Part shown: positions 1-19,043 of the stretch, one piece after another
How the letters are laid out: every line of letters starts with the position of its first letter
How positions within the stretch are numbered: position 1 is the first letter of the stretch
NCBI RefSeq assembly: GCF_014646055.1
Contig: NZ_BMMS01000015.1
Coordinates: forward strand, 62,001 to 126,000
Source: Wenjunlia tyrosinilytica
Lineage (GTDB): Bacteria; Actinomycetota; Actinomycetes; Streptomycetales; Streptomycetaceae
Direction: 5' to 3'
DNA length: 64,000 nt
Position numbers and translations under genes: made by a program
Notes under the pieces: model-generated
What the model was told of the DNA's origin: nothing
What the model saw: only the letters and a program-made list of their open reading frames with translations
Databases searched by the model: none

Positions 1-406
1 CCCGGTCCGCCGTGCTGGTCGCGATCAGCCCCGCCGCCGTGGCCAGCGCGTACACGAAGCCCGTGCAGACGGCGACCACGTCGAAGGCCGAGATCGTGCC
101 CAGTCCCAGCCGGGAGGCGACCAGCGGAGCCGTCGCGGGGCACAACCGGTCCGGAGTGGTGGTGGCCAGGACCAGGGCGTCCACCGACTCGACGCCGGCC
201 GACTTCAGTGCCCGGCCACCCGCCTCGACGGCCAGGTCCGAGGTCGCCATCGAGGCGTCGGCGATGTGCCGCTGCCCGATCCCCGTCCGGCTGCGGATCC
301 ACTCGTCGGTGGTGTCCAGGGTCCTGGACAGGTCCTCGTTGGTCTCCACCCGCGGCGGCAGCCACGTGCCGAGCCCGGACACCACCGCCGCGCGCCCGGT
401 GGTCAT
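1..406 (-). CDS. 3-oxoacyl-ACP synthase III (KAS III) family, partial at left edge
   Basis: Only the first 135 residues are inside the window; the gene continues leftward. It starts at ATG 406-404 and overlaps the stop of the desaturase gene by 4 bases (ATGA), so the two are translationally coupled. The N-terminus has the KAS III pattern: a first strand ending GLGTWLPPR, then DEWIRSRTGIGQR, and the nucleophile region AFDVVAVCTGF with the predicted catalytic Cys at residue 114. KAS III enzymes condense an acyl-CoA or acyl-ACP starter with malonyl-ACP. As the last visible gene of the operon it probably builds, primes or transfers the acyl chain of the product; a stand-alone esterifying KAS III-like enzyme is possible. 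The His and Asn of the triad lie outside the window. Confidence 0.85.
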   Translation of the reverse strand, partial: MTTGRAAVVSGLGTWLPPRVETNEDLSRTLDTTDEWIRSRTGIGQRHIADASMATSDLAVEAGGRALKSAGVESVDALVLATTTPDRLCPATAPLVASRLGLGTISAFDVVAVCTGFVYALATAAGLIATSTADR

Positions 407-1485
407 CGTGTCGCCCCGGTGGGGGCCGCCTCGAGCCGGCGGACCTCTTCGCTGACCTCGCCGAGGTATCCGGAGACCTCGCGGTACGAACCGAGCACCG
501 TGGTCTCGTGGTACGGCAGCCCCTTGCGCAGGCAGTAGTCCTTCACCAGCGGCTGCGCCCGGCGCAGATTGCCGCGCGGCATGGTCGGGAAGAGATGGTG
601 CTCGATCTGGTAGTTGAGCCCGCCGTAGAAGAACTGGGTGACGGGGTTCGGACGCAGGTTGCGCGAGGTGACGACCTGCCGGGTGAGCCAGTCCCACTCC
701 TCGCCGTCGCCGTCGCGAACGGGCAGCCCCTTGTGGTTCGGGGCGAAGAGCATGCCCATGTACAGGCCGAACAGGGCCTGGTGGATCACGATGAACACGA
801 CCGCCTTGAGCGGGGACAGGACATGGAACACGCCCCAGAGGTACGCGGCCAGGTGCAGGGTGAGCGCGGTCAGCTCCATCTTCTTGTAGCGCTTGAGGGC
901 GCCCCTGCGGGCGGCGATGTAGCCCGACAGGTGCAGCCGAAGGCCCTCCATCAGCACCGTGACGTAGAACATCCACGACTGGTGCCGCACGATGAACCGG
1001 GCCACCGCGCCCTGGCGGCGCTCGCTGTGACCGGGGTCGAAGATGACCTGGCGGCGCAGGATGTCGGGGTCCTTGGACAGGTGGTTGGGGAAGTTGTGGT
1101 GCGCGGTGTGGTGGCCCACCCACCAGCCGAAGCTCACCCCGGACAGCAGATTGCCGTGCACATAGCCGACGATCTCGTTGCCGAGCCTTCGGCCGGTGAT
1201 CTGCCGGTGGCCGGCGTCATGGCCGATCAGGTCGGTCTGTGTGCTGGCGAAGGCGATGGCGACCGCGAGAGCCGCCTGCCACCAGGAGTCGCCCAGGAGG
1301 GCGAAGGCGGTCCAGCACACGGCGAGCAGCATCGCGTTCTGGACGATCTTGTAGGTGAAGTAGCCGGGGCGTGAGTCCATCAGCCCGGCTGCCTTGACCA
1401 GGCGGGACACCTCGTCGAAGCTCCCGCTGTGGGCGAGCGCCGACGCCGAGGTGTCCACCCCGTCCGCGTGGCCGAGTTCGGTCAT
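403..1485 (-). CDS. Membrane fatty acid desaturase (FADS family)
   Basis: 360 residues from ATG 1485, preceded by GGAGGAAG. It has the three histidine boxes of integral-membrane di-iron desaturases: HDAGH at about residues 89-93, HHTAHH at 125-130, and QIEHH near the C-terminus, plus hydrophobic segments between boxes 1 and 3. These enzymes insert a cis double bond into an acyl or related chain using O2 and an electron donor. The start overlaps the stop of the upstream diiron gene (ATGA) and its own stop overlaps the KAS III start, so it lies inside one operon. In this setting it may install the alkene of an alkenyl product rather than modify membrane lipid; that role is inferred. Confidence 0.9.
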   Translation of the reverse strand: MTELGHADGVDTSASALAHSGSFDEVSRLVKAAGLMDSRPGYFTYKIVQNAMLLAVCWTAFALLGDSWWQAALAVAIAFASTQTDLIGHDAGHRQITGRRLGNEIVGYVHGNLLSGVSFGWWVGHHTAHHNFPNHLSKDPDILRRQVIFDPGHSERRQGAVARFIVRHQSWMFYVTVLMEGLRLHLSGYIAARRGALKRYKKMELTALTLHLAAYLWGVFHVLSPLKAVVFIVIHQALFGLYMGMLFAPNHKGLPVRDGDGEEWDWLTRQVVTSRNLRPNPVTQFFYGGLNYQIEHHLFPTMPRGNLRRAQPLVKDYCLRKGLPYHETTVLGSYREVSGYLGEVSEEVRRLEAAPTGATR

Positions 1486-2441
1486 ATCGCTTCCTCCAGC
1501 CCCATGTAGGCCAGCCGCTGGCGCTGCATCCGGTCGGCCCACTCGTGCGCGGTGGCCACCCGCTCGTCGACGGTGGTGTCCACCAGCCGGCGGCCGGGCC
1601 AGATCTCGTAGTCGCCCGCGATGTCCGCGTGCTCCTCCAGCCCCTGCTGGAACAGCCCCTCGCGGCGCAGCATCATGTCGGTCGCGGGCAGCTCGCCCCA
1701 CATCTGCTGACCGTCCTTGATCAGCTTCAGGATGCGGTCCTTCTCCTCCGGGTGCTTCAGCAGGTACTCACGGGCGATGGAGCTGCCGACCGTCAGATGC
1801 CGGATCTCGTCGATCGCCGCGCCCCGTTCGATCTCCGAGGCCGCCGGGTCGAAGACCCGCCACTTGCGCTCGCTCAGCTCGGCGGCGGGCGCCAGCACCC
1901 CCTCGACGAGGATGGTCAGCACGACCACGCCGCCGATGAAGTCGCTCTCGTCGCGCAGCACCCTCAGGCCCAGGTTCTCCAGCGGCACCAGCACCCGGTC
2001 CCGGTCGTGCTCGGCCAGCCGCTCGATCGACTCGAACAGCCGCTCCTTCGGGATGCCCAGGTCCAGCAGATGGCTGCGGAAGACCATCGCGTGCCGCGCC
2101 TCGTCCATCAGCTGGGTGGCGTAGAACTCCATCGAGTCGATGTCCGGGGCCAGCGCCACCAGGTAGGAGATCGCCCTCGTCGCCTTCTCCTCGGCCATGG
2201 AGCGGAACGCCAGCTCCTGGGTGAGGGAGTCGTTGAGCGGACCCGGACGGCTGACGATGTCCAGGGTGCCCACGTCGTCGGCGTGGCCGAGGACCTTGCC
2301 GCGCAGGGTGCCCTGGGGGACGGAGCGGAACCAGTACTGCAGATTGCAGGACTGCGCCGTCAGTTCGAGGTTCATCGCCCCGTCTACGAGGGAGGGCGCG
2401 CGCTCCCAGTCGGCCTCTGCGGGGATGGTGGTGTCGGACAT
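1482..2441 (-). CDS. Ferritin-like diiron protein, candidate N-oxygenase (VlmB-like role)
   Basis: 319 residues, starting at ATG 2441. It shows a full carboxylate-bridged diiron signature: Glu84/85, the pair E114-A-R-H117, Glu180, and the pair E212-I-R-H215, on predicted long helices as in ribonucleotide reductase R2 and AurF-type N-oxygenases. It is soluble, with no signal peptide. The start lies 2 bases after the stop of the small membrane protein and the stop overlaps the desaturase start. In valanimycin-type pathways uncharacterised proteins accompany the N-N bond steps, and a diiron oxygenase is a plausible azoxy-forming oxidant. I recognise the metal-site pattern with confidence; assignment to the VlmB group is inferred from fold and context, not from an alignment. 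Confidence 0.75.
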   Translation of the reverse strand: MSDTTIPAEADWERAPSLVDGAMNLELTAQSCNLQYWFRSVPQGTLRGKVLGHADDVGTLDIVSRPGPLNDSLTQELAFRSMAEEKATRAISYLVALAPDIDSMEFYATQLMDEARHAMVFRSHLLDLGIPKERLFESIERLAEHDRDRVLVPLENLGLRVLRDESDFIGGVVVLTILVEGVLAPAAELSERKWRVFDPAASEIERGAAIDEIRHLTVGSSIAREYLLKHPEEKDRILKLIKDGQQMWGELPATDMMLRREGLFQQGLEEHADIAGDYEIWPGRRLVDTTVDERVATAHEWADRMQRQRLAYMGLEEAI

Positions 2442-2443
2442 CG

Positions 2444-2932
2444 TCAACTCCTGGGCTCGAGCTGCTCGACGAGCAGGTCGCGGTCGGCGACGGAGGCGGT
2501 GAACTCGCTGCGGAAGCGCAGGTATGCCGGGTCGGCCACGGGCTCGAAGTGCAGCGCGAAGGGCTTGAGGAAGTTGCCGAACAGCGCACGGTCCCCGAAC
2601 AGGTGGATGGGCAGCACCAGCAGTGCCCATTCCGGCCCGGCCGCCCAGATCCAGATCAGGGCCACCAGGCCCTGCGTGACCAGGCTGTGCATCGTGTTGT
2701 ACAGGACGTAGTAGGCCTTGGAGATCCGCTTGTCCGCGCTGCGGTGGTAGGCGATCGCCCCCGGGATGTACCCGATGAGGTCGATGTAGAGGAACAGCGC
2801 CACCGCAGGAATCCAGCGCACGTCCCCGATGTGGGCGAAGAACAGCACCAGGGAGACGATCAGGCCGAGCCCGTACTCGGCCCGGTGCAGCCCGTAGGTG
2901 GTGGGCGTCTCGAAGAAGTTGCGCTGGTCCAT
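2444..2932 (-). CDS. Small integral membrane protein with conserved His residues (VlmO-like role possible)
   Basis: 162 residues with about four hydrophobic segments (roughly residues 24-34, 40-57, 85-98 and 103-112). Charged/His clusters sit between them: HRAE near 18, YHRSADKR near 62, NTMH near 80, and HLFGDR near 112. This spacing resembles membrane metal-binding enzymes, but no canonical His-box family is recognisable. Its ATG shares one base with the stop of the SRPBCC gene and its stop is 2 bases from the diiron gene, so the membrane protein and diiron protein are made together. Valanimycin clusters contain an integral membrane protein of unknown function, VlmO; homology is suggested by context only. 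A permease or structural anchor for the diiron protein is an alternative. Confidence 0.6.
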   Translation of the reverse strand: MDQRNFFETPTTYGLHRAEYGLGLIVSLVLFFAHIGDVRWIPAVALFLYIDLIGYIPGAIAYHRSADKRISKAYYVLYNTMHSLVTQGLVALIWIWAAGPEWALLVLPIHLFGDRALFGNFLKPFALHFEPVADPAYLRFRSEFTASVADRDLLVEQLEPRS

Positions 2933-3432
2933 CACCGGCCTCCGACCGCGACGGCCTCGGCCTGCTCGACCGCGCGGGCGAGCGCGTCGTCGCCGACCAC
3001 CGAGGCACTGTCGAACAGGCTGATCACGACCCGGGCGATGGTCTCCTTGAGCACCCGCTCGGCGACCGGGTCCAGGATCCCGGCCAGGCTCGGGATGCCG
3101 AAGTCGAACTCGGCGGCGAAGCCGATCAGGCAGCCGGTGCCGTCGGGGGTGACCTTCCAGGTGCCGGAGAAGTCCGCGAAGTCGCCGTCCACCTGGCTGA
3201 ACTCGATCAGCAGGCCCGGCCGGTCGAACCGGTCGGCCTCGGTCCAGGTGAGGATTCCGTTGCGGAAGTACACCTCCCAGTCGCTCTGTTCCTCGTTCTC
3301 GGACACCTCGTGCACGGTCACCGAGCGCACCACGTCGCTGAGTTCGGGATAGCGGGAGAAGTCCTTGATCGTGTCGAAAGCCGCGCCCGGTTCGACATCG
3401 TCGACGCGGACGGTCAGTTCTGCGCTGCGCAT
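2932..3432 (-). CDS. SRPBCC / polyketide cyclase-like protein
   Basis: 166 residues. The START-like helix-grip pattern is visible: an N-terminal strand TVRVDDV, the region FDTIKDFSRYPELSDVV typical of coenzyme Q-binding/cyclase proteins, an antiparallel sheet with WEVYFRNGILTWTEADRF, and a long C-terminal helix. SRPBCC proteins bind hydrophobic ligands and may act as cyclases, aromatases or carriers. ATG 3432 lies 5 bases downstream of the aminotransferase stop. There is no aromatic polyketide synthase in view, so binding of an acyl/amine intermediate is more likely than ring closure. Function unproven. Confidence 0.75.
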   Translation of the reverse strand: MRSAELTVRVDDVEPGAAFDTIKDFSRYPELSDVVRSVTVHEVSENEEQSDWEVYFRNGILTWTEADRFDRPGLLIEFSQVDGDFADFSGTWKVTPDGTGCLIGFAAEFDFGIPSLAGILDPVAERVLKETIARVVISLFDSASVVGDDALARAVEQAEAVAVGGR

Positions 3433-3437
3433 GCGCT

Positions 3438-4793
3438 TCAGCCACCTTCTGATGTCGGTGCGTACCGGGCCGCCTGCAACTGGCAGGCGCGGTCGACTGC
3501 CTCGTAGAGGAACTCCACATCGCCCCTGGTCATGACCGCGGGCGGGGTGAGACGCAGTACGAGGTGGGAGTTGAGGGAGTGATTCGCCACGACGCCCTGC
3601 ATGGCAAGTTCGATGAGCAGGTCGCCCGCCGGGCCCGGTTCGGCGAACTCGATGCCCAGCAGCAGTCCCCGGCCCCGGACTTCGCGCACGGCGCCGCCGA
3701 AGTGGCCGCGGACGATCCCGCCGAGCCGTGGCAGCAGTTCCTCGCCGAGCTCGCGCGCGCGCCCGACCAGGTCCTCCTCCCGCATCGCCGCTATCGCCCC
3801 GCGCGCGGCCGCCATGGACAGCGGCGCCTGGGAGAACGTCGAGGTGTGCAGGTAGGGGTCCTTGTCGAAGACGGAGAACGCCTGGCGGGTGGCGACCGCG
3901 GCCGAGACCGGGACGATGCCGCCGCTGAGGCCCTTGCCGACGAGCATCACATCGGGGGTGACGCCCTCGGCGTCCGCTCCCCACCACGAGCCCAGGCGGC
4001 CCATCCCGGTCTGGATCTCGTCCAGCACGAAGAACGCGCCATGGCGGCGGCACAGGTCCCGCACCGCGGTGAGATAGCCGGGCGGCGGGATGATCACGCC
4101 GGCCTCGCCCTGCACCGGCTCCACGAAGACCGCGCACTCGCCGGGGTGGGCGGCCAGGACCGCCTCCAGCGCGTCCGCGTCGCCGTACGGCACATGCGAG
4201 GTCTGCGGCAGCAGCGGGCGGAAGGGGTCCTGGAAGACCGCCTTGCCGGTCAGGCTCAGCGCACCCATCGTCTTGCCGTGGTAGCCGTTCTCCGTCGCGA
4301 CCAGGTGGCGCTTGCCGTGGGTGCGCGCCATCTTGATCGCGGTCTCCACGACCTCGGCCCCGGACTGCGCGAAGTGCACCCGCTCCAGGCCGGGCGGGGC
4401 GACCGAGACCAGCGCGTCGGCGGCGAGCGCCGCGGACGGCTCGAGGAAGATCCGGGTCGCGACGGGGTGCGAGTGCAGCTGCTCGCAGACATGGCGGACC
4501 ACCGTGGGGTGGCGGGCGCCCATCAGCAGGACGCCGTAGCCGCCGCAGTTGAGGAACCGCTTGCCCTCGCTCGTGGTGACCCAGGCGCCCTGCGAGGCCA
4601 CCTCGATATGGCCGCCGAACATCTCGCCCAGCACCGCCCGGCCCTTGTTCAGGCGCGACCGGTACAGCCGTCCGAGTGCCTCGCGCCCGAGAGCCGCGCC
4701 GCCCCGACCGTCGCTGCCCTGCCCGGCGCCGCCCTGCCGGTCCGGGCCGGCCTGCCCGGACGGGGAGACTTCTGTCGTCGGCGAAATACTCAT
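3438..4793 (-). CDS. Class III PLP-dependent aminotransferase
   Basis: 451 residues, ATG 4793 preceded by GAGGAGAAC. Class III hallmarks: ESGAE-type phosphate-binding segment QSGAEVVE near 144, ENGYHGKT near 168, LDEIQTGMGRLG with the PLP-binding Asp at 258, and Schiff-base Lys287 in VGKGLSGG. The first ~35 residues are a disordered Gly-rich extension. Such enzymes aminate aldehydes or ketones using an amino acid or amine donor. Being between an aldehyde dehydrogenase-type gene and an N-oxygenase-like flavoprotein suggests conversion of a fatty aldehyde to a primary amine. Class III enzymes for ornithine, 4-aminobutyrate or diamines share these motifs, so substrate is inferred from context. 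Confidence 0.88.
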   Translation of the reverse strand: MSISPTTEVSPSGQAGPDRQGGAGQGSDGRGGAALGREALGRLYRSRLNKGRAVLGEMFGGHIEVASQGAWVTTSEGKRFLNCGGYGVLLMGARHPTVVRHVCEQLHSHPVATRIFLEPSAALAADALVSVAPPGLERVHFAQSGAEVVETAIKMARTHGKRHLVATENGYHGKTMGALSLTGKAVFQDPFRPLLPQTSHVPYGDADALEAVLAAHPGECAVFVEPVQGEAGVIIPPPGYLTAVRDLCRRHGAFFVLDEIQTGMGRLGSWWGADAEGVTPDVMLVGKGLSGGIVPVSAAVATRQAFSVFDKDPYLHTSTFSQAPLSMAAARGAIAAMREEDLVGRARELGEELLPRLGGIVRGHFGGAVREVRGRGLLLGIEFAEPGPAGDLLIELAMQGVVANHSLNSHLVLRLTPPAVMTRGDVEFLYEAVDRACQLQAARYAPTSEGG

Positions 4794-4801
4794 CGTTCTC
4801 C

Positions 4802-5938
4802 TCAGGTCAGGCGCAGCGGACGGCCGGCGACGTGGTCCAGGAAGGGACCGGTGAAGCTGTCGCGGGACGGCGGGTGGAAGGACAGGCCGTGGGCGGCCGC
4901 GGTGAGGTAGGCGACGTCGTCGGAGCCGATGAAGGCCATGCCGCCGAGCAGCTCGACGGCCCGGTTCTTGGCGTCGCCCAGCGCGTCCTGGGCGGCGTAG
5001 CGGGCGACCAGGGTCTTGCCGAGCGCCGCGTTGTCGGCCTCGCCGTCCATGAGCATGCGGGCCACGCCCTCGAGCAGGAGGTTGGCCGACTCCAGGCGGG
5101 TGACGAGCTGGGCACGGTCGGAGTCGCTGCCGCGGCCCCGGGCGACGACCTTGTCCACGAGGGTGGAGACCATCCCCAGGTAGCAGGCGGAGATCAGCAG
5201 CTCGAACCAGATGAAGCCCACGGTCTGCAACTGGTCCAGCTCACCGGCGTCGCCGAGCTCGGTGCGCATCAGCAGCTGCTCGTCGACGAAGACGTCGGTC
5301 AGCCTGACCTCGTCGCTCTCGGCGCCGGCCAGCGCCCAGGTGGACCAGAACGGGTGGACGGTGATGCCGTCGGTCTGCCGGGGCACCAGCAGGACGGCCA
5401 TCTCCGAGCCGCCGTCGTCCGTGGGCAGGGCCACGCTCGCGGTGAGCAGGTCCATCGAGTGCGCCAGGCTGCACGGCTTCTTGGAGCCGTTGACGACGAA
5501 GCCGCCCTCGGCCTTCGCGGCGTGCATCGTGGGGGTGAGGATGCCCTGGCCGGGGCTGCCCTCGGCGAAGCCCGAGGCCACCAGCAGCCCCTGCTCGGCT
5601 ATGCCTTCCAGCAGGGCCCACTCCATGCCGCTGCTCTGGATGCTGTCGGCGAGGGTGAACAGGGTGGCGACGGAGAAGTGGTGCATCGTCGTGCCGACCG
5701 CCAGCGAGGGGGCGCGTGAGGCCAGGGCCCGGGTCACGGCCAGGGCCTGGAGCGGATCGGCGCCCGCCCCCTTGTACTCCTTGGGGATCACCAGGCCGGG
5801 ACCGCCGTGGGAGCGGAAGTGCCCGAGGGCCGGGCTGTCCGGTGCTTCGAGCTCCTTGAGCGGGGTCTCGGCGAGGAGGTCCAGCAGTCCGGGCAGAAAC
5901 GCCTCGCAGGTCTGACTCGCGACTTCCAGCGAACGCAT
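4802..5938 (-). CDS. Acyl-CoA dehydrogenase-fold flavoprotein, possible amine N-hydroxylase (VlmH-like role)
   Basis: 378 residues, ATG 5938. The fold is clear: N-terminal helical domain with GPGLVIPKEYKGAGAD, a middle beta domain with GFVVNGSKKPCSL, and a C-terminal four-helix region ending HGLSFHPPSRDSF. It lacks the usual C-terminal YEGT-type catalytic loop of medium-chain acyl-CoA dehydrogenases and has no obvious catalytic Glu in that place. Class D flavin monooxygenases share this fold, including isobutylamine N-hydroxylase VlmH of valanimycin biosynthesis and the sugar nitrososynthases. With the adjacent aminotransferase, hydroxylation of the amine nitrogen is the favoured role. A true acyl-CoA dehydrogenase acting on the chain remains possible. 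No flavin reductase partner is visible in the window. Confidence 0.75.
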   Translation of the reverse strand: MRSLEVASQTCEAFLPGLLDLLAETPLKELEAPDSPALGHFRSHGGPGLVIPKEYKGAGADPLQALAVTRALASRAPSLAVGTTMHHFSVATLFTLADSIQSSGMEWALLEGIAEQGLLVASGFAEGSPGQGILTPTMHAAKAEGGFVVNGSKKPCSLAHSMDLLTASVALPTDDGGSEMAVLLVPRQTDGITVHPFWSTWALAGAESDEVRLTDVFVDEQLLMRTELGDAGELDQLQTVGFIWFELLISACYLGMVSTLVDKVVARGRGSDSDRAQLVTRLESANLLLEGVARMLMDGEADNAALGKTLVARYAAQDALGDAKNRAVELLGGMAFIGSDDVAYLTAAAHGLSFHPPSRDSFTGPFLDHVAGRPLRLT

Positions 5939-6026
5939 GGGGGTCCTCGGTTCTCGTTCCGGCTGGTGGGTGAACGGGTCCGGGCGCTCCTGCCGGGGCG
6001 GGCCCGGGCCCGGAATTGACGAAGGA

Positions 6027-7763
6027 TCAGGAGGCCTCGCGCATGGCCTTCCACGCTCCGAAGACCGATTCCTTGGGGGGAGTGCCGTCGTCGGCGACGG
6101 CGACGCCCTGCACGTGCGAGGTCCGCAGGATCGGGTAGTTCGCCTCGCCGAAGACGCCCCCGGTCAGACCGGTGCCGCCATGGGTGGGCAGATAGGGCAG
6201 GAACCCGATGTGGGAGTCGTTGACCTTCAGCAGGCCCGCCTGGGTGATCCTGGAGACGAACCGGTCCACGACCTCGGGGTCGCGTGCCCACACCGAGTTG
6301 CGCAGCCCGTACTCGTTGCTGTTGACGAAGTCGATGAACCGCTCGAGCAGCACCTCGTCGTCCTCGGCCTCCGCGGCGATCACCGGCAGCAGCGGGAAGA
6401 AGGTCTCGTGGCGGACCGCGTTGACCTCACGGGCGTCCTTCAGTCCGCGCACCAGGACCACCGTGGGCTCGAGGAAGATCCCGGCCGGGTCGCGGGAGCC
6501 GTCGGCGGCCATCGCGTGGCCGCCGCACACCAGCTCCGCGCCCTTGGCCAGCGCGTCCTCCAGGCAGGTGAAGAACTTCTCGTTGCGCAGCACCGGCGTC
6601 AGGAGCACATCCTCCTCGCCCGGGTGCCCGGCGGTGATCAGGGACACCTCCTGGGCCAGCAGGCGCACCAGCTCGTCGGCGATGTCGGGGTGGGCCACGA
6701 CCTGGTTGGGGATCATGCACAGCTGGCCGGAGCCGTAGAAGCTCTCGGTCAGGGCCTGCGCGGCCAGCGGCAGGTCGGCGTCCTTCCAGACCACCACCGC
6801 GTCGTTGCCCGCCAGTTCCAGGATGGGCTTCTTCCCGGCGGCGATGCACTTCTCCTGGAACTTCAGGCCGTTCTCGCTGGTGCCGATGTACATCACGTCG
6901 TCGACATCGGGGCTGTCCAGCCATGCCGAGAGCATCGGGGCGGGGTCGCCGCAGACGACGTTGAGTGTCCCGGGCGGCGCGCCGACCTCCTCCAGCACCG
7001 GGGCGACGACCTCGTGCAGCACGTACATCACGCCGAACGGACCGCTGCGCGGGGCGCGCACCACCAGGGAGTTGCCCGCCATCACCGAGTTGACGCCCAG
7101 CAGGGCGCTCGACAGAGGGGCGTTCTGCGGCGGGTTGAGGCACACCACGCCGTCGGGCTGGCGCCGGACGATGATCCGCCGGGGGCCGTGCCGGAACTCC
7201 TGGAGCATCTGCGAGTGGTAGAAGCCGAGGGACTCGGGCCCGAAGCACTCCAGCATGCCGGAGACCTGCCAGCGGGCGAGCGCCAGCGGGTGGCCCTCCT
7301 GGACCAGGATCTCGGTGATCTCCTCGGCGCGCTCCTTGAGCCGGTCGTGGATGAGCGAGCCCACCTTGGTCAGCCGGGTGTCCAGGGGGAACGCCGCCCA
7401 CTTCGGCGCGGCCCGCCCCGCGGCCTCCAGGGCGAGCTGGACGGTGGGCCGGTCGGCCTTGGCGACACGGCCGATGATGCTCGCGGGAAGGTTCTCGGCC
7501 GGCACCCTGCCCTGCTCCAGCTTGCGCTTGAGCGTCAGGCTGGAGAACGCGTCCTCGAGCAGGGCGCCGGCGTCGACGACGTAGACCCAGTCGTCGGACG
7601 GGACCTGCTTGCCGTCGATGTAGGACAGGTAGGTGCGCACTTGGGAAACGGGTGATTGCTGCGGACCCTGTGCGCCGGTTGCGTCGCCGTCGTGTGCGAC
7701 CGGGTCCTGGGCGACCGAGCCCGGCCGGTGCGACACCCGAGGCGACAACTCGAGGCTGCTCAC
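6027..7763 (-). CDS. Aldehyde dehydrogenase superfamily enzyme (possible acyl reductase)
   Basis: 578 residues from GTG 7763, which has a G-rich stretch just upstream; the open frame extends further but without a good ribosome site. The N-terminal ~45 residues are low-complexity. ALDH landmarks follow: PPQNAPLSS cofactor region near 211, GTSENGL near 294, general base Glu316 in ELAGND, and nucleophile Cys349 in GSGQLC. The family oxidises aldehydes or, in the CoA/ACP-reductase branch, makes aldehydes from acyl thioesters. As first gene of the operon, followed 88 bases later by the flavoprotein gene, it could deliver the fatty aldehyde to the aminotransferase. Direction of catalysis is inferred. 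Confidence 0.85.
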   Translation of the reverse strand: MSSLELSPRVSHRPGSVAQDPVAHDGDATGAQGPQQSPVSQVRTYLSYIDGKQVPSDDWVYVVDAGALLEDAFSSLTLKRKLEQGRVPAENLPASIIGRVAKADRPTVQLALEAAGRAAPKWAAFPLDTRLTKVGSLIHDRLKERAEEITEILVQEGHPLALARWQVSGMLECFGPESLGFYHSQMLQEFRHGPRRIIVRRQPDGVVCLNPPQNAPLSSALLGVNSVMAGNSLVVRAPRSGPFGVMYVLHEVVAPVLEEVGAPPGTLNVVCGDPAPMLSAWLDSPDVDDVMYIGTSENGLKFQEKCIAAGKKPILELAGNDAVVVWKDADLPLAAQALTESFYGSGQLCMIPNQVVAHPDIADELVRLLAQEVSLITAGHPGEEDVLLTPVLRNEKFFTCLEDALAKGAELVCGGHAMAADGSRDPAGIFLEPTVVLVRGLKDAREVNAVRHETFFPLLPVIAAEAEDDEVLLERFIDFVNSNEYGLRNSVWARDPEVVDRFVSRITQAGLLKVNDSHIGFLPYLPTHGGTGLTGGVFGEANYPILRTSHVQGVAVADDGTPPKESVFGAWKAMREAS

Positions 7764-7959
7764 GCGTACCCCCGCTTTCTTCTGCCCCTGCGCCCGTCGC
7801 AGGCATATGCGAACTGCGTTGCGTCGAATGACTGTCCCAGCAGCCTCTGAGAAGGCCCGGAGACCGCGCTGAGACCGCCTCTTCAGTGGCGTCGAAGACC
7901 GATCGGCGACCCTGGCTGCGAACGTGCGGGTCCGGGTGATGGATTGGCAGGGGAGCGGG
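7764..7959. promoter_or_regulatory. Divergent promoter region between ALDH operon and VlmA-like gene
   Basis: This 196-base gap separates the leftward biosynthetic operon from the rightward DUF2156 transferase gene and must hold both promoters. It is slightly less GC-rich than its surroundings around 7795-7850. No clean -10/-35 pair or operator was identified by eye; the pathway SARP would be expected to act here. Confidence 0.5.
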
Positions 7960-8958: not shown

Positions 8959-9017
8959 CGAGCGCGCGACGAGCCGTCGCCCCCGCCCGCGGCGGTCGCG
9001 TATCGCCCGCGGCGGCC

Positions 9018-9779: not shown

Positions 9780-9857
9780 GTGTGTGTCCGCCCCTTTCGG
9801 CGTGCGGCCGGGACTGGCCGGCCCGGCCCGTTCATCCGTGCGCTGCGGTGCGGTTCT

Positions 9858-9920
9858 GTGCGAAGTGCGTGGTGCGACGTGCGTGGTGCGTGGTGCGACG
9901 TGCGTGGTGCGATGTGCGAA
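9858..9920. repeat. Nine in-phase heptamer direct repeats GTGCGNN
   Basis: Nine consecutive 7-bp units, all starting GTGCG and ending AA, TG, AC or AT, run without interruption from 9858 to 9920. They lie 79-141 bases upstream of the SARP start codon. SARPs recognise heptameric direct repeats, though usually spaced by a helical turn rather than end to end. Replication slippage in a GC-rich tract is the plain alternative. Confidence 0.9.
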
Positions 9921-9950
9921 GAGCGCGCGGTGCGAGACATGCGTTGTGCG

Positions 9951-9982
9951 ACGTGCCGACGTGCCGACGTGCCGACGTGCCA
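9951..9982. repeat. Four 8-bp tandem repeats ACGTGCCG
   Basis: Four consecutive octamers, three exact ACGTGCCG and a fourth ending in A, follow the heptamer array on the SARP-distal side. The half-palindromic ACGT core recurs every 8 bases. Confidence 0.9.
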
Positions 9983-10319
9983 AGTGCGCATGCCTGTGCT
10001 GTGCGCCGTGCGCCGGGTCCCCGGCGGTGCGGCTCGTCGCGGTCCGGCGCCGCACCCGCGACCGGGTCGGCGTCCAGGTGCCGCGGCACCGGCCGAGGTG
10101 AGGACGTGAAGCCGTCGTGGCGTACGCGGCGGTAACCGCGCCGTCACGGTGACAGCCGCACTCACAGCGTCGATCGACGCGGGGTCCGGTCCTGCTGGAC
10201 CGGCAACCGCCTCATCATGCGCAAATTGTCCGCCCCCGGCTCGAGGTCCGGTCGACCTCGCATCGTGCGTGTGTTCGTACGCTGAGCCGTATTACGGGGG
10301 ACATGGCACGGGGGAGCCT
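9983..10319. other. Remaining SARP/SGNH intergenic sequence
   Basis: Together with the two repeat arrays this forms a 540-base divergent gap between the SARP gene and the SGNH-like gene. Open frames crossing it encode only repeat-derived low-complexity peptides with no ribosome site or protein-like composition. Both promoters must be here. No convincing additional gene is seen. Confidence 0.6.
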
Positions 10320-11012
10320 ATGACAACGAAGCAAGGTGCCGCCCCGCGTGAGGCGGGCGATCCGCACTGCCTGCGCGAGGGAGAGGCGGCACGACTGCTG
10401 GAGCGGGCCCCCTGGCGCCGTTTCGTGGTGCTGGGGGACGGAGTGGCCGAGGGCAGGGGTGACCCGGTCGAGGGCTACGGCCAGGGGGGCTGGGCGGGAA
10501 GGGTCGCCGCCGCCCTGCGCGAGGTGCGTCCTGAGCTGGCGTACCTCAATCTCGCCAAGCGCTCGCTGGTCGCCGCCCAGGTGCGGTCCCAGCAGTTGGA
10601 GGCCGCCTTGAACTTCACCTGCGACCTCGCCGCCGTGGTCTGCGGCGCGCAGGACGTGCTGCGCCGCTCCTTCGACCCCGACGCCACCGAGGTGGAGCTG
10701 AGCCGCGTCATCGCGCCCCTGCGCGACGCGGGGTGCGACGTCCTGACGATGAGCCAGTTCGACATCACCCGCTCGGGCCTCGTCCCGGAGGAGGAGTCGC
10801 CCGCCCTGCGCGAGCGCCTGCGGGTACTCGCCGAGCGCACGCAGGCGGTCTCGCTGCGGCACGGCGCGCTGCACGTCGACCTGACCCTCCATCCGGCCGC
10901 GGCGGATCCCGGTGTCCACAGCGCGGACCACCGCCACCCGAGCGCGCGCGGCCACGCCGTCGCGGGCGCCGAGGCGGTCCGCAGGCTGGGCGCCCGGCTC
11001 CTCGAGCGCTAG
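10320..11012 (+). CDS. SGNH/GDSL-hydrolase-like protein with degenerate active site
   Basis: 230 residues, ATG 10320 with GGGGGAG upstream. It is clearly paralogous to the SGNH hydrolase at 13785-14489: shared RLLERAPWRRF/TKFLNGAPWKRY start, GQGGWAGRV, RSQQLEAALNF, EVELSRVIAPLR, RLRVLAERTQAVS and SARGHAV. Block I reads VLGDGVAEG, so the nucleophile Ser is Gly41. Block III reads CGAQD, so the oxyanion Asn is Gln111. The block V Asp203/His206 pair remains. As written it should not work as a Ser hydrolase. It may be a binding or partner protein for the intact paralogue, or a decaying copy; the open frame and codon use remain normal. Confidence 0.8.
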   Translation: MTTKQGAAPREAGDPHCLREGEAARLLERAPWRRFVVLGDGVAEGRGDPVEGYGQGGWAGRVAAALREVRPELAYLNLAKRSLVAAQVRSQQLEAALNFTCDLAAVVCGAQDVLRRSFDPDATEVELSRVIAPLRDAGCDVLTMSQFDITRSGLVPEEESPALRERLRVLAERTQAVSLRHGALHVDLTLHPAAADPGVHSADHRHPSARGHAVAGAEAVRRLGARLLER

Positions 11013-11066
11013 CGCTGTCCACCGATCGGCCGTGGAGCCTCGTTGACGGCTCCGGGGGCCGCTCCT

Positions 11067-11087
11067 AGAATCCGAACGTCGGTATGT
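11067..11087. promoter_or_regulatory. TetR operator-like inverted repeat upstream of tetR
   Basis: Left arm AGAATCCGA and right arm TCGGTATGT are separated by ACG. The right arm is identical to that of the operator-like site before the exporter gene (12232-12254), and the left arm matches the inverse at 6 of 9 positions. It lies 22 bases upstream of the TetR start codon, well placed for autorepression. Confidence 0.7.
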
Positions 11088-11108
11088 TCCTGTGGTGAGG
11101 TGGTGCGC

Positions 11109-11753
11109 ATGGCTGTCCCGTCCCGGACCGTCCCCGCCCGTCCCCGCCGCCGGACCCAGCGCGAGCGCAGCGAGGCGACCTCGGGCGATCTGCTCGACGC
11201 CGCACGGGAGTTGTTCGCCCGGGACGGCTACGCCGCCACCTCGCTCGAGGCCGTCTGCGAACGTGCCGGGGTGAGCAAGGGCGGCCTGTACCACCACTTC
11301 AGGAACAAGGAGGACCTCTTCCGCGTGGTCTGCGCCGCCGAGCAGAAGCGGCTCGCCGCGGCCGTCTCCGCCGCCTACCGCGCCACCCCCGACGACTCCT
11401 GGCTCGCGGTGTACGAGGGCTGCCGCGCCTTCCTCGAGGCCTCCATGGATCCGGCCGTCCAGCGCATCACACTCCTGGACGCGCCCGGCGCCCTCGACGG
11501 GTCGGTGCTGCGGGAGATCCGCTCCGGCTGCCAGGACCTGATGAAGGCCGCCGTGGAGCGGGCCGTGTCCGAGTGCCGGATCGCGCGGCGCCCGGTCGAG
11601 CCGCTGGCCACGCTGCTGTACGGGGGCATATGCGAGGCGGCGATGGCGATCGCCCGATCGCCGCGCCAGGAGGAACTGCGCCGGGAGACCCTCGGTGAAC
11701 TCCGCTCGTTCCTGGCCGCCCTCGCCGTGGAGGCGGCCGCACTCGCCCGCTAG
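11109..11753 (+). CDS. TetR-family transcriptional repressor
   Basis: 214 residues from ATG 11109, chosen because GAGGTG lies just upstream and because the HTH begins at the usual distance. The N-terminal helix-turn-helix is textbook: LLDAARELFARDGYAATSLEAVCERAGVSKGGLYHHFRNKEDLF at about 25-68 (shown here only as its key run). The remaining helices form a ligand-binding domain. Matching inverted repeats in front of this gene and of the DHA2 exporter downstream imply that it represses itself and the exporter and is released by the product or an intermediate. It sits between cluster genes, so it is probably the pathway's export regulator. Confidence 0.93.
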   Translation: MAVPSRTVPARPRRRTQRERSEATSGDLLDAARELFARDGYAATSLEAVCERAGVSKGGLYHHFRNKEDLFRVVCAAEQKRLAAAVSAAYRATPDDSWLAVYEGCRAFLEASMDPAVQRITLLDAPGALDGSVLREIRSGCQDLMKAAVERAVSECRIARRPVEPLATLLYGGICEAAMAIARSPRQEELRRETLGELRSFLAALAVEAAALAR

Positions 11754-12231
11754 TGCCTGCCACGTCTCCCCGTATCCGCGTATCCCCGCATCCCCGCGTC
11801 CCGGCCGCCTGCGGGGTCCCGGTTGGCACGGCACCCTGAATCCCGACTCGAGCGCCTCTGGTTACCGGCCCGTCAGGCCGCGTACGAGCAGGACACGAGG
11901 TCCACTCCCTACCCTCTAGGCGCTGCACGGCAGGCCGCTTGCCCATGACCTGCCGAGCGGGCGGCCGGCGCTGCGCTTCGGCCTCGATGCCCCGCCGGAT
12001 CGGCGCCCCGCGCCCCGCCTCGTCGCCCGCTGCGCCATATGCGCCATGAGGAGGTGAACGCGGACGGGTTCGCTCTCTCGAGGGACGCTCGAGCCGTACC
12101 GGACCGCTCTCCGGAGATGGGGCGCGGACCCTTTCCGATACCGGAAAGCCCCTGATGGGGGGCCATGCACAGGCCTTGGTCGCGGAGCGTGGGGTCCATG
12201 GCTCCGGTTGACGTCCACTCGCCCGGCAGAA
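11754..12231. other. Intergenic stretch between tetR and the exporter gene
   Basis: About 480 bases without a convincing gene. It contains a perfect inverted repeat at 12131-12148 (CTTTCCG, 4-base spacer, CGGAAAG). A GTG-started frame for about 33 residues at 12056 follows an AGGAGG-like motif, but the peptide has no recognisable features. A minus-strand frame here is Arg/Ala-rich noise. Confidence 0.5.
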
Positions 12232-12254
12232 TACATTCCGACCATCGGTATGTA
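12232..12254. promoter_or_regulatory. Near-perfect operator palindrome upstream of DHA2 exporter
   Basis: Arms TACATTCCGA and TCGGTATGTA flank the 3-base spacer CCA, with one mismatch in ten pairs. The site overlaps the start of the AGGAGG ribosome-binding site and ends 15 bases before the chosen start codon, so a bound repressor would block transcription or early elongation. The right arm recurs upstream of the TetR gene. Confidence 0.85.
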
Positions 12255-12269
12255 GGAGGCATGAGAGGC

Positions 12270-13745
12270 ATGATGAGTAATCAGACTCCAGGCGCAGCGG
12301 CCCGACGTGGTTATCTGCCCTTGTTGTTGCTCGCATCCGGTGCGACATTCCTGGCCGTCCTCGACGTGACGATCGTCAACCTGGCCATCCCCGACCTGCA
12401 CAACGACTTCGACAGCGCGGACATCGCGGACCTGTCATGGGTCGTCACGCTCTACGCCACGCTCTTCGCCGCCCTGCTCGCCCCCGCGGGCAGACTCGCC
12501 GACGTCATCGGCAGGCGGTCCCTGTTCATCGCGGGCATGGGCGGCTTCACGCTCATGTCCCTGCTGTGCGCGCTCGCGCCCAACCTCGGCCTGCTGCTCG
12601 GGGCGCGGGCCCTGCAGGGCGCCAGCGCCGCCGCGATGATCCCCGCGTCGCTGGCCATCGTGCTCGCCGACACCCCGCCCGAGCGCCGCAGGGCGGCCAT
12701 CGGCCAGTGGAGCGCCGCCTCCGCCCTCGCCGCGGCGGTCGGACCCTCCGTCGGCGGTGTCCTGGTCGACCAGTTCGGCTGGCGGTCGCTGTTCCTGATC
12801 AATGTGCCCTTCGGCATTATCCTGCTGCTGTTCGCCGGCATCATTCCCCGCACCACCCGCCCCGAGGGCAGCAGGCTCCCCGACCTGCTCGGCACGCTCC
12901 TGCTCGGCACCGGCATCGGCCTGCTGAGCCTGGGCATCTCCAAGGGCAGCGACTGGGGCTGGGGCGCGGCCGCGACCCTCGGCTGCCTGATCGGCGGCGC
13001 GCTCGCCATGGGCCTGACGCTCTGGCGCTCCAACCACCACCCCGTTCCGGCCGTGGAGACCTCGCTGTGGCGCAGCCGCACCTTCGCGCTGGCCAACGCC
13101 TCGTCCTTCTTCTACGGCGCCGCGCTGTTCGCCTGGCTGCTCGTCGGCGTCCTGTACGTCACGACCCTGTGGCACTGGTCGGAGCTGAAGGCGGGCCTGG
13201 CGATGACCCCAGGCGCCTTCGCGGCGACCTTCGTGGCCCTGTACGCGGGCAACCTCCAGGCCAAGTACGGTCCCCGCTTCGTCGTGGTCTCGGGCTCGCT
13301 GATCCTGGCGGCCACCGGGCTGTTCCTCGCCTTCACCCTGCCCGACCACTCGATGTTCTGGGCCTACTGGCTGCCGCTGGGCACCGTTGCCGGTATCGGC
13401 ATGGGCGCCATCACCACCGGCACCTCGACCGCCGCGGCGCTGTCGGTCTCCCCGCTGCGCTTCGCCGGAGCGACCGGCCTGAACCAGACGGCCCGCCAGG
13501 TCGGCGGCGCCCTGGGCATCGCCACCCTGGCCACCATGCTCACCGATGTCCAGCTGACCACGGACGACTTCGGCAAGGTCTACCTCTTCGCCGGGATCTC
13601 CTCGCTCCTGGCGGCCCTGACCGGACTCGGACTCGTCTTCAAGGCGGCGCCCGCCCCGGCGGCCACCACCGACCCGGCCGCCGCCGACGCCGCCGCCTCG
13701 GACAGGCAGGCCTCGGCCGCGTCCCAGGAGAAGGCCGCCAGTTGA
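12270..13745 (+). CDS. DHA2-family MFS drug exporter
   Basis: 491 residues with about 14 hydrophobic segments. DHA2 features: LDVTIVNLAIPDL in helix 1, the loop 2-3 motif GRLADVIGRR, an antiporter motif region ALAAAVGPSVGGVL in helix 5, and an Ala/Asp-rich C-terminal tail. ATG 12270 is chosen because AGGAGG at 12254-12259 lies 10 bases upstream; ATG 12261 would be too close. It is an inner-membrane proton-coupled exporter, most likely for the cluster product or self-protection. Control by the neighbouring TetR is supported by the shared operator. The SGNH hydrolase gene follows after 39 bases. Confidence 0.92.
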   Translation: MMSNQTPGAAARRGYLPLLLLASGATFLAVLDVTIVNLAIPDLHNDFDSADIADLSWVVTLYATLFAALLAPAGRLADVIGRRSLFIAGMGGFTLMSLLCALAPNLGLLLGARALQGASAAAMIPASLAIVLADTPPERRRAAIGQWSAASALAAAVGPSVGGVLVDQFGWRSLFLINVPFGIILLLFAGIIPRTTRPEGSRLPDLLGTLLLGTGIGLLSLGISKGSDWGWGAAATLGCLIGGALAMGLTLWRSNHHPVPAVETSLWRSRTFALANASSFFYGAALFAWLLVGVLYVTTLWHWSELKAGLAMTPGAFAATFVALYAGNLQAKYGPRFVVVSGSLILAATGLFLAFTLPDHSMFWAYWLPLGTVAGIGMGAITTGTSTAAALSVSPLRFAGATGLNQTARQVGGALGIATLATMLTDVQLTTDDFGKVYLFAGISSLLAALTGLGLVFKAAPAPAATTDPAAADAAASDRQASAASQEKAAS

Positions 13746-13784
13746 CGACGGACCGCCGCGACCCCGACAAGGAGACCCACCGAA

Positions 13785-14489
13785 ATGACGAGCACGCAGG
13801 CGCAGCCACCGGACGACACCTCACTCGAGGCGCAGGACCCGTACCTGCTCGACGACGACTCCACCACCAAGTTCCTGAACGGAGCGCCGTGGAAGCGGTA
13901 CGCGGTCCTGGGGGACAGCATCGCCCAGGGTGTCCGCGAGGCGGTGCCGGGTTACGCGGACAGCTCGTGGGCGGAGCGCCTCGCCGGTTCGCTGCGGCGC
14001 GTCCAGCCCGACCTGGAGTACCGCAACTTCGGTGAGCGCGACCTGGTGGCGGCCAAGGTGCGCTCCACCCAGCTGGAGCCCGCGCTGGAGTTCGCCCCGG
14101 ACCTCGCCGCCGTCCTCGCGGGCGGCAACGACATCCTGGGGCGCAGCTTCGACGCCGACGCCGTCGAGGTGGAGCTCGCCCGGATGATCTCCGCGCTGCG
14201 GGCCAGGGGCACCACGGTCGTCACCATGGGGCTGTTCGACATCACACAGTCCCCGTACGTCCCCGAGAAGTACCGCCCGATCATGCAGGAGCGGCTGCGG
14301 GTGCTCGCCGAGCACACCCGCGCCGTCTCCGACCGCATGGGCTGCCTGTACGTCGACCTGCCCGGTCACCCCGCGGGCGGCGAGGAGATCTACTCCCAGG
14401 ACGGCCTGCACCTCAACACCCGCGGCCACGCGGTCGTGGCCACCGAGACGGTGCGAAGGATCGCCGAGCACCTGGGCAACTCCGCCTGA
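13785..14489 (+). CDS. SGNH/GDSL hydrolase, intact active site
   Basis: 234 residues, ATG 13785 with AAGGAG upstream. All SGNH blocks are present: VLGDSIAQG with nucleophile Ser45, a conserved Gly region at GERDL, GGND with Asn115, and D206-x-x-H209 in SQDGLHLNTRGH. There is no signal peptide, so it is cytoplasmic. Family members are esterases, acyltransferases or thioesterases. It is probably co-transcribed with the exporter. Together with the degenerate paralogue at 10320 it may hydrolyse or transfer an acyl group or ester on the pathway intermediate; substrate unknown. Confidence 0.88.
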   Translation: MTSTQAQPPDDTSLEAQDPYLLDDDSTTKFLNGAPWKRYAVLGDSIAQGVREAVPGYADSSWAERLAGSLRRVQPDLEYRNFGERDLVAAKVRSTQLEPALEFAPDLAAVLAGGNDILGRSFDADAVEVELARMISALRARGTTVVTMGLFDITQSPYVPEKYRPIMQERLRVLAEHTRAVSDRMGCLYVDLPGHPAGGEEIYSQDGLHLNTRGHAVVATETVRRIAEHLGNSA

Positions 14490-14817
14490 CGCACACCCGT
14501 TGTCCCCGCCGCCGCTTCCCCGACCCCGAAGCGCCGGACGCGGGCCGGCACCGCCCCGACCGGGCGCCCGCTTCCCAGGGGCGCCCGGCGCGGGCGTTCC
14601 CGGACCCGAAGTCCCCGGCGGGGAACGGAGAGTTCAGAGCCGCCCTCGCGAGTCCCGGGCCGGGACCGGCGCTTCGGCGGTGACACCGGCGGCGCCGAGC
14701 GGAGATCCCGCTGAGACCGGTGTGTCAGAGGGATCTGGCGCATCCTCGCGACACTGGCTGCGCGCCGCGCACCCGGCCCTCGTCCGTCCGTATCCGACCC
14801 GTTGGAAGGCCACCGGC
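14490..14817. other. Intergenic stretch before P450 gene
   Basis: About 330 bases, extremely GC-rich and low-complexity in the first half (short CCCCGxCGCC-like runs). No gene is supported. The P450 promoter presumably lies within 14690-14800; no clear -10/-35 was found. Confidence 0.5.
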
Positions 14818-16026
14818 ATGACAGGCACGAGCTCCGACGCCGCCCCTCAGTTCTCGTACCCCATACCCCGCACCTCGCCCAACGAGCCGCCGTGCGAGTA
14901 CGCGAAGCTGCGCGCCGAGCAGCCCGTCTGCCCCATCTCGCTGCCGACCGGCCACCCGGCGTGGCTCATCACGCGCTACGAGGACGTCAAGACGGTCCTG
15001 TCGGACCACAGGTTCAGCCGGGAGGCGCTCTTCCGCGACGGAGCGCCCAGGGCGCAGCTGATCGAGCCGGACTCCAACAGCGTGATCAGCATGGACCCCC
15101 CGCGCCACACGGTCATCCGCAACCTGGTCAACCGGGAGTTCACCCCCCGGCGGGCCGAGAATCTGCGCCCGAAGATCCAGGAGGTCGTGGACACCCTGCT
15201 GGACGACATGGCCCGCCGGAGCGCGCCGGTGGACCTCAATGCCACGCTGGCCCGCCCGATGGCCCTGCAGATCATCTGCGAACTGCTCGGGATCCCGATC
15301 GAGGACCAGCACAAGTTCGGCAGCTGGTGCGACCACTTCATGTCGCTGACCAAGTACACGGCGCAGGAGATCATCCGCTCCAACACGGAGATGCGGGACT
15401 ACTTCGACCGGCTCATCGTCGCCAAGCGGGCCGAGCCCGGCGAGGACCTGCTCAGCAAGCTCGTCCAGGCCATGGACGAGGAGGAGAAGATCACCAAGGA
15501 GGAGCTGATCAGCACCGGGGTGATGCTCCTGCTCGCCGGCCACGACACCACGGTGACGGTCACCGGCGGCGGCGCGGTCATGCTGATGACCCACCCCGAC
15601 CAGCTGGCGCTGGTGCGTGAGGATCCCGCGCTGCTGAACCCCGCGATCGAGGAGATCATCCGCCTGGTCACCCCCGGCGACGGCACCTTCATCCGGATCA
15701 CCCTGGAGGACGTCGAACTCGGCGGCACCGTCGTGCCGTCGGGCTCCGCCGTCATCGCCCCGATCAGCTCCGCCAACCGCGACGCCTCGGTCTTCCGCGA
15801 CCCCGACACCATGGACATCCTCCGGGACGACAACAAGCACATCGGGTTCGCCTACGGCACCCACTTCTGCGTGGGCTCCGCGCTCGCCCGCGCCGAACTC
15901 CAGATCGGCCTGCGCACCCTTTTCGAGCGCTTCCCCGGTCTCCACCTGACGGTCCCGCCGCAGGAGCTGCGCTGGCGGATGACCGCCGCGCTCGGCGGCT
16001 ACGAGGAGATCCCCGTCGCCTGGTGA
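14818..16026 (+). CDS. Cytochrome P450
   Basis: 402 residues, ATG 14818 with GGAAGG upstream. Bacterial class I P450 motifs are intact: I-helix AGHDTT at 240-245, ExxR at E279-R282, and heme-binding FAYGTHFCVG with Cys351. It needs ferredoxin and reductase encoded elsewhere. It is the last gene that plausibly belongs to the cluster and may hydroxylate or further oxidise the alkyl chain. The next gene, a molybdoenzyme, looks unrelated. Confidence 0.93.
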   Translation: MTGTSSDAAPQFSYPIPRTSPNEPPCEYAKLRAEQPVCPISLPTGHPAWLITRYEDVKTVLSDHRFSREALFRDGAPRAQLIEPDSNSVISMDPPRHTVIRNLVNREFTPRRAENLRPKIQEVVDTLLDDMARRSAPVDLNATLARPMALQIICELLGIPIEDQHKFGSWCDHFMSLTKYTAQEIIRSNTEMRDYFDRLIVAKRAEPGEDLLSKLVQAMDEEEKITKEELISTGVMLLLAGHDTTVTVTGGGAVMLMTHPDQLALVREDPALLNPAIEEIIRLVTPGDGTFIRITLEDVELGGTVVPSGSAVIAPISSANRDASVFRDPDTMDILRDDNKHIGFAYGTHFCVGSALARAELQIGLRTLFERFPGLHLTVPPQELRWRMTAALGGYEEIPVAW

Positions 16027-16083
16027 ACGGCCGCGGCCGGGCAGCACGTGAGGAGCCGGACATCCGAACGGGGGAGTACCCGC

Positions 16084-18324: not shown

Positions 18325-18366
18325 TCAGTCCTCGATCCGGCATCCGTGGAAGCCGGTCGACGGTTC

Positions 18367-18951: not shown

Positions 18952-18979
18952 GAGAGGCTCCGTCGATGACGTTCCAATA

Positions 18980-19020
18980 TTGACAGGTCGAAGTTAGAAC
19001 CTCCCCTTGTGACCTGTCAA
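18980..19020. promoter_or_regulatory. Perfect 10-bp inverted repeat, PadR operator and promoter
   Basis: TTGACAGGTC at 18980-18989 and its exact reverse complement GACCTGTCAA at 19011-19020 are separated by 21 bases. On the minus strand the right arm supplies a TTGACA -35 with TAACTT 18 bases downstream as the -10 for the membrane-protein gene. The PadR gene starts 23 bases to the right. The spacing suits a PadR dimer contacting two half-sites. Confidence 0.85.
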
Positions 19021-19043
19021 CAGTGGAATGTAGTCTTGCCGGT

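Follow-up and report, generated by a model that had tools for sequence, protein, structure and literature searches.

A candidate gene cluster for aliphatic azoxy biosynthesis in Wenjunlia tyrosinilytica

The DNA analysed here (the window, 64,000 nucleotides) comprises bases 62001-126000 of contig C15 in the 8.49 Mb draft genome of Wenjunlia tyrosinilytica; a further 20 kb was read to its left. The gene block at its left end is very probably a biosynthetic cluster for an aliphatic azoxy compound, formed via the published VlmH-VlmA-VlmO-VlmB route. We base this assignment on the genes themselves, their family membership, their key residues and their recurrence in other genomes. The four core enzyme genes all lie within 7.5 kb. 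An initial annotation, made from the nucleotide sequence alone, had proposed an azoxy-type pathway for bases 1-16026, and this logic is supported at the level of gene families, as relatives of all four core enzymes were found. The strongest support comes from a small His-rich membrane protein and a ferritin-like protein, both of which the annotation listed and both of which are present, but which it did not recognise as homologues of VlmO and VlmB. NCBIfam, at its cut-offs, offers no name for any of the four core proteins.

The VlmO homologue (2444-2932, minus strand) matches no Pfam family above the cut-off; its match to DUF4260 is weak, as is that of Ady6 from the azodyrecin pathway (PMC9379638). 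According to PMC11705231, VlmO is the membrane enzyme that forms the N-N bond of valanimycin, and its residues D51, H82, H110 and D114 are essential. All four are identical, at the same numbering, in 81 of 81 aligned rows (the window and 80 related loci), and both VlmO copies of Kitasatospora setae keep them at the same numbering as well. The predicted model is all-helical (mean pLDDT 85), and a Foldseek search with it returned no PDB match with an E-value below 0.001, i.e. no solved relative. In a search of the whole genome the window copy was the only VlmO found. The VlmB homologue (1482-2441, minus strand), a ferritin-like protein and putative diiron oxidase for the conversion of hydrazine to azoxy, likewise lacks a Pfam family above the cut-off; it matches the PDB structures 6d9f and 8wvr ("Putative VlmB homolog") with an E-value of 1.2e-107 and exhibits two ExxH motifs.

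The VlmH homologue (4802-5938, minus strand), assigned by Pfam to the acyl-CoA-dehydrogenase fold and predicted to be a flavin-dependent amine N-hydroxylase, has 378 aa, equal to the length given for VlmH in PMC7347517. A profile built from 75 cluster relatives, with the window and W. vitaminophila excluded, scored 629 bits for the window protein and 566 and 578 bits for the two K. setae copies, versus 59 bits at best among the 28 other acyl-CoA-dehydrogenase-fold matches of the genome that were scored (out of 31). This comparison with VlmH sets the flavoprotein apart from the other family members and rules out a true acyl-CoA dehydrogenase. The absence of the YEGT loop, pointed out in the initial annotation, was borne out, as the pattern occurs in 0 of 77 cluster flavoproteins (window included); it is nonetheless a weak sign and was dropped as a test, because merely 8 of 28 other family members of the same genome match the pattern.

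The VlmA homologue (7960-8958, plus strand; Pfam PF09924 and LPG_synthase_C) is a putative aminoacyl-tRNA:hydroxylamine transferase of the DUF2156/GNAT fold, whose closest solved structures are MprF/lysylphosphatidylglycerol (LPG) synthases. A profile of 67 VlmA relatives, from which the window protein was excluded, gave it 556 bits versus at most 69 for 29 LPG synthases, and in a tree of 98 rows a branch with support 100/100 parts these 29 synthases from the window protein and 68 cluster VlmAs. It thus groups with VlmA and away from the lipid transferases, and a role in lipid aminoacylation was ruled out on both grounds. Within the tree, the window protein and its counterparts from 23 loci form a clade of 24 rows (support 99/92). 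VlmA relatives also occur in 48 plasmid records; among the 12 listed, 11 carry the name "DUF2156" and one is unannotated. To the right of the window, an LPG_synthase_C match at C15:189759-190004 is partial, contains one in-frame stop and probably represents a gene relic or a fortuitous frame.

Genes were called by third-position G+C; all 23 measured genes are open at their final coordinates, with values of 0.92-0.98. Every gene named in the initial annotation is present, most with Pfam matches above the cut-off, the ferritin-like protein being confirmed by its PDB match and the membrane protein by its residues. On the minus strand, the core genes are accompanied by the 5' part of the ketoacyl-ACP synthase (KAS) III gene (1-406, whole gene L005:1372-2406; PF08541/PF08545), a membrane fatty-acid desaturase with His-box motifs (403-1485; PF00487), an SRPBCC (polyketide-cyclase-fold) protein (2932-3432; Pfam), a class III aminotransferase (3438-4793; PF00202) and an aldehyde dehydrogenase (ALDH; 6027-7763, start codon uncertain; PF00171) with its Cys (GQLC) and Glu (LELAG) motifs. 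The acyl carrier protein (ACP; L004:19037-19291, PF00550) and KAS II (L004:17799-19037, PF00109) follow to the left of the window on the same strand. The Cys/His/Asn and Ser motifs of KAS III, KAS II and the ACP are in place, and known active-site motifs are present in ALDH, KAS II, KAS III, ACP, aminotransferase, desaturase and VlmB. From ALDH through KAS II, neighbouring genes are spaced by -4 to +88 bases; this tight spacing, together with the same gene set in other genomes, argues that the block is not a chance assembly.

The recurrence of the set was assessed with a VlmO protein search of genome contigs, which yielded 116 relatives, of which the best 80 were analysed as loci. The DNA compared reached up to 10 kb on each side of VlmO (less at contig ends), and an absence refers to that DNA, except that VlmB was sought in 30 whole genomes (L043 not among them). 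Relatives of the cluster proteins were found as follows: VlmH-like in 78 of the 80 loci, VlmA in 68, VlmB in 62, aminotransferase in 61, SRPBCC in 60, ALDH in 52, KAS II in 49, ACP in 41, KAS III in 34 and desaturase in 23; the loci are mutually related, so these counts are not independent. All 23 desaturase loci also hold VlmB, and all 34 KAS III loci hold both VlmB and the aminotransferase, while KAS III occurs in none of the 18 loci without VlmB, of which 12 carry an ACP and 10 a KAS II. The SRPBCC gene is found in 60 of 61 aminotransferase loci versus 0 of 19 loci without aminotransferase, and because of this tracking it may belong to the amine-making part of the pathway. The class of azoxy clusters as such is already known, since a published survey reported 179 VlmA/VlmH pairs in 3,146 actinobacterial genomes and noted KAS III, VlmJ/K-like and Ady1-like families near some VlmA groups (PMC9379638).

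On the other side, the core genes are flanked by a SARP regulator (9018-9779, minus strand; Pfam BTAD/Trans_reg_C; 88% identical to W. vitaminophila) and, all on the plus strand and recognised by Pfam, two GDSL hydrolases (10320-11012 and 13785-14489; 65% and 74% to W. vitaminophila), a TetR regulator (11109-11753; 72% to W. vitaminophila), a major facilitator superfamily (MFS) exporter (12261-13745), a cytochrome P450 (14818-16026) and a molybdopterin oxidoreductase (16084-18324; PF00384/PF01568/PF04879), a possible tailoring gene at the right edge. The two hydrolases, the P450, the oxidoreductase and the SRPBCC gene at 2932-3432 are additions to the gene list of the initial annotation. To the left of KAS II lie a second SRPBCC gene (L004:17202-17678, minus strand), PrpD2, a member of the MmgE/PrpD family (L004:15574-17097, plus strand), an AurF-like diiron protein (L004:14453-15577, plus strand), a VlmJ-like member of the DAGK/YegS family (L004:13462-14409, plus strand), an Ady1-like leucine carboxyl methyltransferase (LCM) family protein (L004:12077-12967, plus strand; PF04072, E-value 2.5e-42), a further MmgE/PrpD member, PrpD1 (L004:10391-11872, minus strand), and an extracytoplasmic function (ECF) sigma gene (L004:9618-10289). 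The VlmJ/VlmK-like pair carries PF00781 with PF19279 and PF03972 with PF19305, respectively; PF19279 and PF03972 are the families named for VlmJ and VlmK (PMC9379638).

Flanks were compared in full for 13 of the 23 loci in the VlmA clade of the window, 12 of the 23 having widened flanks. Wider flanks were read for W. vitaminophila and for 11 clade loci (20 stretches, without the right side of L082 and with a single side of L017); the remaining clade loci, namely L043 and the ten that lack VlmB, kept their original flanks. Among the 13 loci, the VlmJ-like gene was found in 11, with PrpD genes alongside it in each, the AurF-like gene in 7, the ECF sigma gene in 3, the methyltransferase in 2 and the molybdopterin oxidoreductase in 3 (L015, L044 and L082; 72-75% identity). 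The P450 has relatives of 57-84% identity in 6 and of 32-38% in 3 loci, the MFS exporter of 52-79% in 7 and of 32-37% in 4. W. vitaminophila and six more clade loci retain the AurF-like gene together with the VlmJ-like and PrpD2 genes, in varying order and orientation. On the strength of this flank comparison the cluster is probably wider than 1-16026, starting at PrpD1 (L004:10391) or perhaps at the ECF sigma gene and ending at 16026 or perhaps 18324; it reaches about 10 kb to the left of base 1.

The predicted model of the AurF-like protein (mean pLDDT 71) gives weak matches to several ferritin-like diiron folds, those of aldehyde-deformylating oxygenase, CmlI and AurF. The genome contains a second copy at C7:43479-44537, 65% identical to L004:14453-15577. 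Copies near VlmO clusters share 73-90% identity and, judged by their sequences, look like a recruited duplicate.

From these genes we infer each chemical step, which amino acid is used, how long the chain is and what the final structure looks like, following the published order of acyl group, aldehyde, amine, hydroxylamine, aminoacyl ester, hydrazine, azoxy compound and desaturation (PMC9379638 and PMC11705231). KAS II and the ACP would help to build a fatty acyl group, which ALDH would convert to the aldehyde and the class III aminotransferase then to the fatty amine. The VlmH homologue would hydroxylate the amine nitrogen with reduced flavin from elsewhere in the cell, the VlmA homologue would load the hydroxylamine oxygen with a tRNA-borne aminoacyl group, most likely seryl, and the VlmO homologue would rearrange the ester to an N-N bonded hydrazine, to be oxidised to the azoxy group by the VlmB homologue. 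The desaturase would create a double bond in the alkyl chain, adjoining the azoxy group, the VlmJ/VlmK-like enzymes would phosphorylate and eliminate the serine hydroxyl to yield an exo-olefin, and the Ady1-like enzyme may methylate the carboxylate. The pathway proposed for azodyrecin uses the same aldehyde, amine and desaturase logic, and in valanimycin VlmJ and VlmK act on the serine part (PMC9379638). Serine is preferred because of that role of VlmJ and VlmK and because they recur with a seryl-tRNA synthetase in K. setae. The product is thus best read as a serine-derived alkenyl azoxy compound, which probably bears an exo-olefin of the valanimycin type. More tentatively, and with the chances rather against it, we suggest a head group not described before, in which the VlmJ/VlmK-like enzymes would remove water from the serine part, the Ady1-like enzyme would add a methyl group to it, and its further oxidation would fall to the AurF-like protein, the P450 or the molybdopterin enzyme.

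For comparison with valanimycin we used K. setae KM-6054 (ATCC 33774), whose VlmO accession is listed in a review (PMC11705231). Its genome has two VlmO clusters (L203/L204), which serve as the reference, the published genes being matched by content. The first, taken as the valanimycin type by its content, contains VlmA, VlmH, VlmO, flavin reductase, VlmB, seryl-tRNA synthetase, SARP and VlmK/VlmJ-like genes and yielded no aminotransferase relative; the second holds aminotransferase, ALDH, SRPBCC, KAS III, ACP, KAS II, desaturase, VlmJ/K-like and seryl-tRNA synthetase genes. The proteins of the present cluster are 52% (VlmA, against the valanimycin-type copy), 49% (VlmH, over 378 aligned positions and of equal length), 63% (VlmO), 53% (VlmB), 44% (VlmJ-like) and 48% (VlmK-like) identical to those of K. 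setae, and SARP is present in both. The window cluster differs from valanimycin in that no clustered seryl-tRNA synthetase or flavin reductase was found, in that the amine is taken to be the product of an aldehyde and the aminotransferase, and in its extra KAS, ACP and desaturase genes.

With the azodyrecin (ady/azd) clusters the present cluster shares the aminotransferase, relatives of VlmH, VlmA, VlmO and VlmB, the desaturase, the LCM methyltransferase and the lack of an aminoacyl-tRNA synthetase (PMC9379638), but it adds KAS III, ACP, KAS II, VlmJ/K-like, AurF-like and molybdopterin genes. Three loci taken as azodyrecin-like by gene content (L085, L092 and L094) revealed neither VlmJ/K-like nor KAS genes within the DNA compared, and their LCM proteins are only 29-35% identical to the one described here. 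The locus of Streptomyces atratus JCM 3386 (L076), assigned to the elaiomycin type by species, resembles the present cluster in its ALDH, VlmH, aminotransferase, SRPBCC, VlmO, VlmB, KAS III, ACP, KAS II and desaturase genes and in its similar gene order. It differs by a flavin reductase between VlmO and VlmB, by the lack of VlmJ/K-like genes in the 20 kb searched there, and by its VlmA, which falls into a separate clade of 33 rows (support 99/99). The closest counterpart is that of W. vitaminophila (L015, L130 and L131), where 20 genes from VlmJ-like to P450 are conserved in the same order at 65-90% identity and where, as in the window, the interval from VlmO to VlmB yielded no flavin reductase. 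In contrast to the present cluster, PrpD2 and KAS II are separated there by some 10 kb of other DNA (L130 about 9050-19414), no methyltransferase or left SRPBCC gene was found, and PrpD1 matches only at the place of PrpD2. We know of no product of this orthologous cluster.

Several observations weigh against the proposed azoxy pathway or parts of it. No metabolite of the strain is known, and the best-ranked matches in the open literature gave no product for the clade or the genus. The initial annotation expected a seryl-tRNA synthetase and a flavin reductase to the left of base 1, and neither is there: the genome search revealed seven flavin reductases, none on contig C15, and one seryl-tRNA synthetase match, on contig C8, with no dedicated one found, so a location just outside the window was dropped. 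A flavin reductase is carried by 65 of the 80 related loci; among the 62 VlmB loci it occurs in 53, lying between VlmO and VlmB in 50, and was not found in 9, W. vitaminophila among them. In the window VlmB starts two bases after VlmO (2441-2444), at the site of the reductase gene elsewhere. A clustered reductase (VlmR) is therefore a usual rather than a defining trait of the pathway class, and it would have been lost in this lineage, with reduced flavin supplied from elsewhere. With no dedicated seryl-tRNA synthetase found, it is the VlmJ/K-like genes that favour serine over alanine; in the published azodyrecin clusters, too, an aminoacyl-tRNA synthetase is lacking (PMC9379638). No ALDH relative was found in L085, L092 or L094, and the aldehyde step in these loci may for this reason use another enzyme. 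The AurF-like family is widespread, matching (E-value 1e-30 or better) in 182 of 297 Streptomycetaceae genomes sampled, mostly at 64-68% identity among those listed, and a role in the pathway is argued from its retention beside the cluster in 7 of the 13 loci compared. Optional parts may be the methyltransferase, PrpD1 and the left SRPBCC gene, as the 40 kb of syntenic W. vitaminophila DNA compared contain no separate equivalent of any of them.

The most serious competing explanation keeps the same N-N chemistry and concerns the role of KAS III, which might act after azoxy formation, adding C2 to the amino-acid carboxyl instead of building the chain. Elaiomycin-like four-carbon heads presumably gain a C2 unit at this position via KAS III. 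The locus of S. atratus, the elaiomycin species, indeed holds KAS III, and the confinement of this enzyme to loci with VlmB and aminotransferase, which sets it apart from ACP and KAS II, would fit such a late step. However, this correlation comes from related loci and is not independent, and the genes scanned include no recognisable acyl-CoA or acyl-ACP ligase that could activate the carboxyl; we consider a late KAS III plausible, if somewhat less likely than not. That the amino acid is alanine and the product an azodyrecin-like methyl ester, with the VlmJ/VlmK-like genes serving otherwise, appears unlikely. The Ady1-like methyltransferase to the left of the window and the missing dedicated seryl-tRNA synthetase, as in the ady clusters, speak for it, but VlmJ-like and PrpD genes accompany 11 of 13 clade loci and the seryl-tRNA-synthetase-bearing K. 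setae cluster, and the azodyrecin-like loci show no VlmJ/K-like or KAS genes.

Two explanations would do away with the azoxy group altogether. A pathway ending at the hydrazine or hydrazide level has precedents in the VlmO loci without VlmB and in alkylhydrazides, which are known Streptomyces products (PMC6344404), but is very unlikely for the window, where the operon also encodes a VlmB homologue that has its two ExxH motifs. Aminoacylation of membrane lipids next to ordinary fatty-acid metabolism, with no N-N chemistry, could draw on the MprF/LPG synthases as the best solved structures and on the Pfam name LPG_synthase_C; it is hardly credible for a DUF2156 protein that tree and profile set apart from 29 LPG synthases and that has VlmO and VlmB in the neighbouring operon. 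The azoxy cluster with a serine-derived head therefore remains the preferred interpretation.

The VlmO loci without VlmB (18 of 80: L018, L020-L023, L025, L026, L031, L035, L045, L046, L050, L065, L083, L088, L089, L090 and L093) show no KAS III or desaturase either. The whole-genome search for VlmB (E-value 1e-5) gave no match in 16 of the 18 genomes, while those of L031 and L035 gave one each. A P450 (L023) and a methyltransferase with an MMPL transporter (L018) were found nearby. One of these loci, L089 from Paraburkholderia saeva, has a VlmO relative (55% identity) outside Actinomycetota, with relatives of VlmA, the flavoprotein and the aminotransferase nearby, and VlmB was sought in its genome and not found. 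Such loci may yield hydrazines or hydrazides; alternatively, a different oxidase may take over. The VlmO-bearing genomes for which the VlmB search came back empty provide a natural test of the fate of the hydrazine without the azoxy oxidase.

Azoxy natural products are rare and bioactive, and their VlmO step is catalysed by a membrane enzyme. As judged from its gene content, the window cluster probably adds to the published, small class of bioactive azoxy compounds a member whose product is not yet identified. With its kin it forms a clade without a known product, whose N-N core stays constant as the tailoring genes around it vary. The undescribed head group, if true, would unite the chemistries of valanimycin and azodyrecin, with an N or C oxidation new to the class.

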